Shown here: positions 10,814-12,487 of the stretch, piece by piece
How positions within the stretch are numbered: position 1 is the first letter of the stretch
Layout: each line of letters begins with the position of its first letter
Source of the DNA: Chlorobiota bacterium
GTDB lineage: Bacteria > Bacteroidota > Bacteroidia > Bacteroidales > VadinHA17
Reading direction: 5' to 3'
Assembly: GCA_013152085.1 (NCBI GenBank)
Contig: JAADHC010000069.1
Location: 1 to 37,820, forward strand
DNA length: 37,820 bases
Program-made: the position numbers and the translations under genes
The notes under the pieces: generated by a model
Told to the model about the DNA's origin: nothing
Database searches by the model: none
The model's input: the letters and a program-made list of their open reading frames with translations, nothing else

Positions 10814-10831
10814 TTTTTTATGTGTTTTTTT
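10807..10831 (+). terminator. Weak intrinsic terminator overlapping the lysA stop
   Basis: CACAT (10807-10811) pairs with ATGTG (10820-10824), followed by seven T (10825-10831). The stem is only five base pairs but is placed exactly at the lysA end and just before the trp promoter. Confidence 0.5.
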
Positions 10832-10859
10832 GCTTGTATGAAAAAAATCTTTACATTCG
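10830..10859 (+). promoter_or_regulatory. Promoter of the trp leader/trpB2 transcript
   Basis: TTG (10830-10832), 19 bases, then TACATTCG (10852-10859), one mismatch from TAnnTTTG. Transcription would begin shortly before the leader peptide start at 10879. Confidence 0.5.
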
Positions 10860-10878
10860 TTCCGTAAACAAGGATAAT

Positions 10879-10950
10879 ATGAATTATTCAAGGACATACT
10901 GGTGGTGGTGGCGTATAAAGATTTGCGCAGTAACCGGAATGTCCGAATAA
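10879..10950 (+). CDS. trpL: trp leader peptide (attenuator control peptide)
   Basis: A 23-codon ORF, ATG to TAA, containing 'YWWWWR': four consecutive Trp codons at 10900-10911 preceded by Tyr. Like other biosynthetic leader peptides its sequence is otherwise unimportant; its translation rate reports charged tRNA-Trp. The stop codon lies just beyond segment 2 of the attenuator, the correct place for a terminating ribosome to mask that segment and allow the terminator to form. It lies 98 bp upstream of a TrpB2 gene. Confidence 0.9.
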
Positions 10951-11010
10951 CAATAAACAGAATTTTACCGAACCGGGACATGTTGGTTACAGCATGTCCC
11001 GGTTTTTTTT
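10892..11010 (+). promoter_or_regulatory. Ribosome-mediated trp transcription attenuator
   Basis: Four RNA segments can be read directly. Segment 1 (10892-10903, GGACATACTGGT) pairs with segment 2 (10933-10944, ACCGGAATGTCC) with one mismatch. Segment 2 extended (10930-10944) pairs with segment 3 (10976-10990) as 14 pairs, two of them G-U, and one mismatch: the antiterminator. Segment 3 (10971-10982, AACCGGGACATG) pairs perfectly with segment 4 (10993-11004), followed by a T run to 11010: the terminator. A ribosome stalled on the Trp codons at 10900-10911 blocks segment 1, so 2:3 forms and trpB2 is transcribed; with ample Trp, 3:4 forms. The downstream gene is trpB2 at 11049. Confidence 0.9.
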
Positions 11011-11048: not shown

Positions 11049-12416
11049 ATGTCATCAACAAAAGTTTTTTTAGACGAGAAGGAGATGCCGAAGCAGTGGT
11101 ATAATCTCATGGCAGATTTACCCAAACCGCCTCCGCCACCTTTAGGCCCTGACGGGAAACCTGTTACTCCCGAGATGCTGTCGGCTGTGTTTCCGATGAA
11201 CCTGATTGAGCAGGAAATGGCTACCGACCGTTGGATAGATATTCCGGAAGAGGTATTGCAACTTCTTTATCGCTGGAGACCGACGCCTTTGCAGCGTGCT
11301 GTAAACCTGGAAAAAGCACTGGGTACACCGGCAAAAATCTATTTTAAAAACGAAAGTGTATCGCCTGCGGGCAGCCATAAACCCAATACGGCAGTCGCGC
11401 AGGCATGGTATAATAAACAGGCGGGTGTGAAAAAAATTACTACCGAAACCGGTGCCGGCCAATGGGGGAGTGCCCTGGCTTTTGCATGCTCATTGCTTGG
11501 TCTTGAAGCTAAAGTATATATGGTGCGGATCAGTTTTGATCAGAAACCTTTCCGGAAAATGATGATGCAGACCTGGGGAGCTACGTGTGTTCCAAGCCCG
11601 AGTAATGAAACGCAGGCCGGAAGGGCTGTTTTGGAAAAATATCCCGACACACCCGGTAGTCTTGGGATTGCTATCAGTGAGGCCGTCGAAGAAGCTGTTT
11701 CCGATCCGACGGGAAAGACCAAATATTCTCTCGGGAGTGTACTGAATCATGTATTGTTACATCAAACGATTATCGGCCTGGAAACAAAAAAACAACTGGA
11801 GAAGATCAATGAAAAGAAAGTGGATGTGGTGATCGGGTGTGCCGGTGGCGGTTCAAATTTTGCCGGCCTGGCATTTCCGTTTGTCCTGGATAAAATCAAC
11901 GGGGCCGGGGTTGATATTATTCCTGTTGAACCGGCATCCTGCCCGACCATGACACGTGCTCCGTATCATTACGATTTTGGTGATAATGCCGGGATGACCC
12001 CGCTGCTGGCCATGCATACGCTGGGTCATGGTTTTATACCGCCTCCCATCCATGCCGGTGGCCTGCGTTATCACGGTATGGCACCGTTGATCAGCCACAT
12101 AATCAACCTGGGGTTGGTCTCTCCTTTGGCGCTGCATCAACTGGAATGTTATAAGGCGGCTATACTGTTTGCCAAAACCGAAGGTATTATTCCGGCACCG
12201 GAAACCAGCCATGCAATTGCTGCTACCATTCGTGAAGCCAAAAAAGCCAAAGAAGAGGGTAAGGAAAAAGTTATCCTTTTTAATTTTAGCGGGCACGGAC
12301 TGATGGACCTCGTTGGATATGATAAGTTCCTGCATGGAGAATTGAGCGATTATGCCCTTAAAGATGAAGAACTGAAAAAATATACCAGAGAGATAGAACA
12401 ATTTCCTACTCCCTGA
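11049..12416 (+). CDS. trpB: Tryptophan synthase beta chain, TrpB2 type
   Basis: A 455-residue PLP enzyme that condenses indole with L-serine to tryptophan. Length (TrpB1 is about 400) and the N-terminal extension with the proline-rich '[16 protein letters not shown]' mark the TrpB2 subgroup, which usually acts without, or with only weak contact to, TrpA. The PLP lysine is K111 in '[16 protein letters not shown]'; the phosphate loop is '[11 protein letters not shown]'; '[13 protein letters not shown]' and '[10 protein letters not shown]' are family motifs. ATG 11049 is chosen because longer readings run back through the attenuator. No trpA or other trp gene is next to it: it is a single gene under its own attenuator, consistent with indole salvage. 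Confidence 0.93.
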
Positions 12417-12456: not shown

Positions 12457-12487
12457 AAAACCGGAAGTATCTGCTTCCGGTTTTTTT
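12457..12487 (+). terminator. Intrinsic terminator of trpB2
   Basis: AAAACCGGAAG (12457-12467) and CTTCCGGTTTT (12474-12484) form a perfect 11-bp stem with a 6-base loop, followed by T residues to 12487. Confidence 0.9.

Follow-up and report, generated by a model that had tools for sequence, protein, structure and literature searches.

A predicted tryptophan-sensing transcription attenuator in front of a lone trpB2 gene, common in one order of the Bacteroidota

The window analysed here is a stretch of 37,820 nt (contig JAADHC010000069.1, read on the forward strand). In it, a trpB2 gene is preceded by a short Trp-rich reading frame and by a set of overlapping RNA stems. The features of the locus are as follows.

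10829..10859, forward strand: candidate promoter of the Bacteroidota type, read from the sequence as TTTG (10829-10832), 19 nt and TACATTCG (10852-10859)
10879..10950, forward strand: predicted leader peptide ORF of 23 codons, ATG at 10879 to stop at 10950, from translation
10892..10903, forward strand: segment 1, partner 10933-10944, from the fold
10900..10911, forward strand: sensor, four consecutive Trp codons (WWWW) lying 18 nt 5' of segment 2, from sequence and translation
10930..10944, forward strand: segment 2, common to stem 1:2 and antiterminator 2:3, from folding and alignment
10970..11010, forward strand: intrinsic terminator 3:4, 16 bp with loop GTTA and a run of eight T, from the fold and kept with compensatory changes
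10976..10990, forward strand: segment 3, the terminator 5' arm and loop, partner 10930-10944, from folding and alignment
11049..12416, forward strand: trpB2, 455 aa, a PLP-dependent tryptophan synthase beta-like enzyme, from NCBIfam profiles and motifs visible in the translation
12457..12484, forward strand: terminator-like hairpin 3' of trpB2, from a hairpin search

The product of the gene behind the leader scored 719 bits against NF009057 (cut-off 366) and 652 bits against TIGR01415 (cut-off 519), which bears out its earlier naming as TrpB2. With the operon-type model TIGR00263 (trpB) it gave 165 bits, under the cut-off of 392. Solved structures related to TrpB2 are 6hul, 4qys and 6hte. Because a hairpin follows the gene, and because the two ORFs upstream of the leader encode diaminopimelate decarboxylase (lysA) and aspartate kinase, trpB2 is probably alone on its transcript.

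A 23-codon leader with four consecutive Trp codons had been proposed in a preliminary description of this DNA, and translation of 10879-10950 gave exactly that, with the Trp codons at 10900-10911. Folding also reproduced the positions proposed for the first two stems. Stem 1:2 joins 10892-10903 with 10933-10944 (11 bp, one A.A mismatch), and antiterminator 2:3 joins 10930-10944 with 10976-10990 (14 bp including two G.U pairs, one mismatch). The terminator, described earlier as a perfect 12-bp stem with a T run, is present but longer: 10970-10985 pairs with 10990-11005 over 16 bp around the loop GTTA (10986-10989), the eight T lie at 11003-11010, and the hairpin energy is -28.2 kcal/mol. The locus therefore has the mutually exclusive 1:2, 2:3 and 3:4 stems of an attenuator, with the terminator 5' of the gene. 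When the whole leader fold was compared with dinucleotide shuffles, z was -7.2 and none of 200 shuffles was as good.

The promoter, the leader start codon and the translation of the leader are predicted at the window. The candidate promoter box TACATTCG is one base off TAnnTTTG, which we take to be the consensus of Bacteroidota promoters. Sixteen of 30 leaders have an exact TAnnTTTG 12-75 nt 5' of the first Trp codon, where mononucleotide shuffles would give 1.6; this count scores L022 as a miss, the wrong leader ORF having been taken there. The box stood at -37 in 12 of the 16, among which the window's own box is not included. A scan also returned a sigma-70 promoter at 10850-10878, which was dropped. 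The Bacteroidota-type box was preferred because the sigma-70 match is at chance level (a mean of 1.2 in shuffles) and would begin transcription inside the leader.

Sixty genomes were searched for trpB2, namely the window's own, 35 others of its family and 24 of its order. They held 35 full-length trpB2 genes, the window's included (two fragments, G030:C36 and G025:C147, were left out of the counts). A Trp-rich leader ORF lay 5' of trpB2 at 30 of the 35 loci, again including the window (29 of the first 30 and one of the other five). A fixed rule was then applied, which demanded an ATG ORF with W, 0-2 residues and W, followed by a single hairpin of -14 kcal/mol or lower with at least five T in nine. 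This combination of leader and terminator was found in 28 of the 35 trpB2 upstream regions and in none of 367 control tiles taken from both strands (0/35 antisense upstream, 0/180 gene-body, 0/152 downstream). W-rich ORFs without a terminator occurred in 26 of the 367 tiles and are hence not rare. The rule failed at L017 (GTG start), at L026 (weak T run, by eye), and at L028 and L164-L167, the five of the 35 loci where no leader was found.

Some of these loci are arranged differently. In the 600 nt 5' of trpB2, L013 (G003) has two Trp-rich short ORFs in a row, MNSGMKYYWWWQ... and then MKGYLVKWWRYINFRWGRC..., as does L014 (G023), where MSWWWRLIFF... is followed by MNEQLIHWWGRVIFRWRT. A terminator with a T run comes only after the first ORF in both, and these are possibly tandem leaders. 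At the leaderless L028 (G006), trpB2 follows closely after a gene whose end, by eye, is a chorismate-mutase-like domain, and trpB2 may there belong to an aromatic operon.

A named set of 80 loci was examined in the same way. Among the 20 titled Bacteroidota, six of which are the same contigs as in the 35-locus set, 16 passed the rule, and a W-rich ORF was present at 17 and absent at three. For the 60 with other titles, one passed (L062, a Spirochaetota MAG) and three had the ORF. In a phylum-wide draw, trpB2 was detected at E <= 1e-60 in 101 of 296 genomes. Outside the family f42, 10 of 40 upstream regions passed the rule, a set in which one region has only 87 bases and one comes from a second paralogue, and from which G067 is left out. 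Within f42, none of the 29 loci returned did so, four of them having less than 220 bases upstream and the gene start being estimated from a motif. The leader was thus missing in most of the phylum-wide trpB2 sample inspected. From these counts, the attenuator is common in the window's order and scattered in the rest of the phylum, and none of the f42 loci inspected has it.

Six loci from other Bacteroidota families (L255, L259, L263, L266, L270, L272) carry WW or WWW leaders 5' of trpB2 with S-rich tails, several of them containing SLPS, and most have hairpins with GCCGUG...CACGGC. They apparently form a second lineage of trpB2 attenuators. Upstream of trpB2 at L062, a leader ...NAWQAWGWRGGSHHPRA* is followed by a terminator of -21 kcal/mol; this is possibly a Trp attenuator on trpB2 outside the Bacteroidota, or else a mis-binned contig. 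At L092 the region 5' of trpB2 has a terminator core, GGCATGTTGTTTTCAGCATGCC, much like the others, and no Trp-rich leader ORF was found there; to the eye it looks like a decayed sensor.

The preliminary description had proposed looking upstream of trpB2 in related Bacteroidota for the same leader and for compensatory changes in its stems. Besides the Trp codons, such changes were found. The alignment used (A1) comprised 30 loci, aligned without structure and cut around the window's segment 2 and terminator. They were drawn from 41 distinct Bacteroidota loci whose leader ORF is Trp-rich (30 from the 35-locus set and 11 further named ones). L010, L013, L014, L026, L163, L038, L041, L043, L054, L056 and L103 were excluded for having another register, another layout or no alignable core. 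Also outside A1 are L092, which has no Trp leader, L040 and L062, which belong to other phyla by title, and the leaderless loci. Terminator 3:4 was paired in 89.8% of the cells, two-sided changes occurring at 9 of its 14 pairs. The core of 2:3, in which segment 2 pairs with the terminator loop and its closing base, was paired in 119 of 120 cells, where the sequences are related and the cells are not independent events. Two-sided changes were seen at all four core pairs, in 13 sequences at one pair and in a single sequence at each of the three remaining pairs. The core stood above all of 500 shuffles on four of five measures (the fifth was reached by 48/500) and above slid registers on all five. 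The full 14-pair 2:3 helix of the window was paired in only 72.4% across A1, its distal part not being kept in register. For single sequences the 2:3 duplex was often no better than shuffles (L001, p 0.027; L004, p 0.35), and the argument therefore rests on covariation.

It had also been claimed that the antiterminator uses the terminator loop. In three of the four core pairs, one base is a loop position that pairs nowhere else in the attenuator, and the covariation there speaks for the claim. It does not extend to the subclade of L010, L041, L054 and L056 (L045 is the L010 contig), which has a different terminator loop and a 2:3 duplex of -12.8 to -17.5 kcal/mol in another register; hence the loop-using antiterminator is not universal.

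The spacing of the leader was also examined across these 30 loci. Between the last Trp codon and segment 2 lay 15-21 nt in 30/30, a range that may be somewhat narrowed because the alignment by which segment 2 was placed included the Trp codons as well. The leader stop is not fixed: its position ranges from 9 nt 5' of segment 2 to 27 nt 3' of the start of that segment. A fixed Trp-to-segment-2 spacing with a wandering stop is what a stalled-ribosome sensor demands. Segment 2 was paired upstream with a mean probability above 0.5 at 29 of 30 loci, stem 1:2 being tested by folding only. With the ribosome stalled, the 2:3 core had a probability above 0.5 at 27 of 30 loci (0.99 at the window) and was not favoured at L020, L023 and L024.

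When the Trp-codon region of the window was masked in folding, as had been suggested, the structure switched. With a ribosome stalled on the Trp codons, the RNA that stays accessible, taken up to segment 3, had the 14-bp 2:3 helix as its minimum-energy fold (-17.2 kcal/mol). Folded from the leader stop onward, the RNA formed the terminator (-28.8 kcal/mol), and the full RNA without a ribosome formed 1:2 and the terminator. At equilibrium the terminator beat 2:3 in every full-length state folded, the stalled state included. Therefore, the switch must be kinetic. Antitermination of E. coli trp is likewise kinetic.

On this basis the following sequence of events is proposed. With ample Trp, the ribosome would reach the leader stop and cover segment 2, so that 3:4 would form and RNA polymerase would halt about 40 nt 5' of trpB2. 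When charged tRNA-Trp is short, the ribosome would stall on the four Trp codons, covering segment 1; segment 2, which begins 18 nt 3' of these codons, would hence be left exposed. The 14-bp 2:3 helix, extending into the terminator loop, would then form ahead of the synthesis of segment 4, and trpB2 would be transcribed. We infer this read-through under Trp starvation from parts, conservation and covariation that were computed. That the region is a ribosome-mediated transcription attenuator which senses charged tRNA-Trp and governs a trpB2 transcribed on its own is, in our estimate, about 93% probable. The preliminary interpretation as an attenuator has thus proved largely right, through the Trp codons of relatives, the compensatory stems and the fold switching.

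Two other accounts of the leader and the hairpin have to be weighed. The leader might be translated and yet act by coupling to the initiation of trpB2, or through Rho, the hairpin being a by-product. Leader genes lying close to the structural gene have been proposed to act by reinitiation in Bacteroidetes and other phyla, and the distances given for Bacteroidetes in that report are 11-14 bp (PMC4833913). At the window, the leader stop lies 98 nt 5' of the trpB2 start, a strong intrinsic terminator with a run of eight T stands between them, and the terminator stem and the antiterminator covary. We regard such coupling or Rho control as very improbable. Still less credible, to the point of being nearly negligible, is that ORF and hairpin are independent, the hairpin constitutively ending a transcript that comes from upstream and the W run being a matter of chance. 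Terminator-less WWW short ORFs do occur elsewhere in the genome, as W-rich ORFs did in the control tiles. Chance would not explain why leader and terminator are jointly kept at 28 of 35 loci against 0 of 367 tiles, why the Trp codons keep their spacing from segment 2, or why segment 2 covaries with the terminator loop; these comparative data already contradict an independent origin.

The window's own genome also has a trp operon. Its seven genes, trpEGDCFBA, lie together on contig C9. By NCBIfam, trpD, trpC, trpB and trpA were over their cut-offs, and trpG was over that of a subfamily model; trpE (413 against a cut-off of 518) and trpF (162 against 215) are below cut-off and carry best-match names. 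The operon is preceded by a leader of its own, MIYTTKHINWWWLYGIRITP* (WWW), with a terminator of -17.2 kcal/mol. The control of trpB2 had been described as independent of the main trp operon. This holds in cis, but with a WWW leader and a terminator in front of the operon too, both switches should answer the same signal. The trp operon and trpB2 may thus constitute a small regulon with two separate attenuators for one signal.

A W-rich ORF was present within 500 nt 5' of trpE at 26 of 30 loci, our own included; the count took ATG, GTG and TTG starts and considered the ORF only, terminators aside, and two of its members, L126 and L133, look doubtful. At L123 and L135, two WWW short ORFs stand in tandem 5' of trpE. 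The pattern TGGTGGTGG, which misses leaders with interrupted Trp codons, was not enriched in the window's own genome (48 matches, against 47 for the reversed control). Among these 48 matches (46 stretches), only the trpB2 and trpE leaders clearly join a short in-frame WWW ORF to a strong terminator. A further match, L207, was a marginal pass, with a TTG start and a hairpin of -12.9 kcal/mol.

To place trpB2 in its pathway, trpE was scored as present above 400 bits, and trpA and trpC over their Pfam cut-offs; weaker matches of chorismate enzymes and sub-cut-off PF00290 matches were scored as absent. Fifteen of the 30 leader-bearing genomes also had trpE, trpC, trpA and trpB1. In 12 of the 30, all four went undetected at these thresholds. 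Four of these 12 (G008, G009, G027, G032) are 96-98% complete and the rest 68-89%, and some of the absences may be assembly gaps. In addition, G041 has trpE without trpC, trpA and trpB1, and all four genes occur without a full-length trpB2 in eight genomes. A contrary case is G043 (100% complete), in which trpB2 occurs alone and leaderless. NF009709, a tryptophanase subfamily, was over its cut-off in 44 of the 60 genomes and in 7 of the 12 leader genomes without the four genes detected, a model that outside our own genome cannot tell tryptophanase from tyrosine phenol-lyase. In our own genome, a gene at G000:C29:94281-95654 (L284) scored 788 bits against NF053783 TnaA (cut-off 750), and this tryptophanase is a putative source of indole.

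The likely role of TrpB2 is the synthesis of Trp from free indole and serine, a substrate we infer, while the presence of leader-bearing trpB2 in genomes where trpE, trpC, trpA and trpB1 went undetected is a computed result. We lean, with some reserve, to a broader proposal. In a large part of the Bacteroidota, trpB2 would be a Trp-starvation gene that is on only when tRNA-Trp is uncharged and that works in indole recapture. Where a tryptophanase is present, the switch would stop Trp synthesis and breakdown from opposing each other; where no de novo pathway is detectable, TrpB2 would be the last Trp-making step left, fed by outside indole.

The same attenuator might instead serve a TrpB2 with another job that is needed when Trp is short, such as serine deamination or another beta-replacement. 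Serine deamination was at one time suggested as the function of TrpB2, and P. horikoshii, which keeps trpB2 in the absence of other trp genes, was taken to point to another function; the same report gives poor deaminase activity for the TrpB1 and TrpB2o proteins tested (PMC1854888). Indole salvage by TrpB1 and TrpB2 of T. kodakarensis is the subject of a study cited in PMC11085991. Runs of Trp codons stand 5' of both trpB2 and trpE in one genome, and leader and trpB2 are kept where the pathway was undetected; both fit Trp synthesis better. A different job for TrpB2 therefore appears unlikely to us.

If the proposal of indole recapture is true, it gives a role in physiology to the 'lone trpB2', described earlier as having a function not yet identified. 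It is the conserved Trp-codon attenuator, kept even where trpE, trpC, trpA and trpB1 were not found, that ties TrpB2 to tryptophan supply. It may then be mistaken to class such bacteria as Trp auxotrophs where they have access to indole, a point relevant to indole cross-feeding in anaerobic communities.

Ribosome-mediated trp attenuation is textbook regulation. The predicted device resembles E. coli trpL and other proteobacterial attenuators in its Trp-codon leader, its exclusive 1:2, 2:3 and 3:4 stems, its intrinsic terminator and its stalling logic. Unlike trpL, it has as target a lone trpB2 and not the trp operon, its antiterminator reaches into the terminator loop, and a further attenuator, distinct from this one, stands before the trp operon of the same genome.

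Within the Bacteroidota, the closest known element is the Bacteroid-trp leader RF01692, listed in a table of Weinberg 2010 (PMC2864571) and noted at the trp operon of F. psychrophilum (PMC6414381). It is likewise cis-regulatory and a Trp peptide leader. In a permissive Rfam scan, the window matched RF01692 with 19.0 bits (E 8.9), under the gathering score of 49, as one of 23 mostly-chance matches; neither a T-box nor any other Rfam cis-regulatory family matched the window at gathering score. When 20 of the 35 trpB2 loci and 20 of the 30 trpE loci were scanned, not one reached the RF01692 cut-off; the trp leaders of the window's order thus lie outside the model, at either gene. It had 29 matches in the 296 genomes; among the best 20 of these 29, 19 precede trpE, one trpB1 and none trpB2.

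A predicted Trp attenuator also stands 5' of a gene named trpB2 in C. diphtheriae, a likeness by name only. That trpB2A is called a biosynthetic operon and includes trpA, whereas trpB2 of the window is alone; other actinobacterial trp attenuators are described there too (PMC1262725). TrpB2o, encoded by trpB2 outside operons, resembles the window's gene in position. It is a stand-alone trpB2 beside an operon-borne trpB1, or sometimes the only trp gene, as in P. horikoshii; for the lone gene, the account in PMC1854888 speaks of another function not yet identified and describes no regulation, whereas the window's gene bears a Trp leader. A flavobacterial transcriptome gives clues for leader-peptide attenuation 5' of amino-acid operons, with tryptophan, trpB and trpE absent from its main text (PMC9723704), and a map of B. 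thetaiotaomicron notes that long 5' UTRs hold sORFs resembling leader peptides (PMC7366714). The main text of a broad terminator survey contains none of the words 'bacteroid', 'trpB' and 'tryptophan' (PMC2965389). Searches of the main text of open-licence papers returned no account of a trp attenuator acting on a Bacteroidota trpB2. Since this type of regulation is already known in the Bacteroidota through RF01692, the novelty lies not in the device itself but in its target gene, trpB2, and in its spread and conservation.
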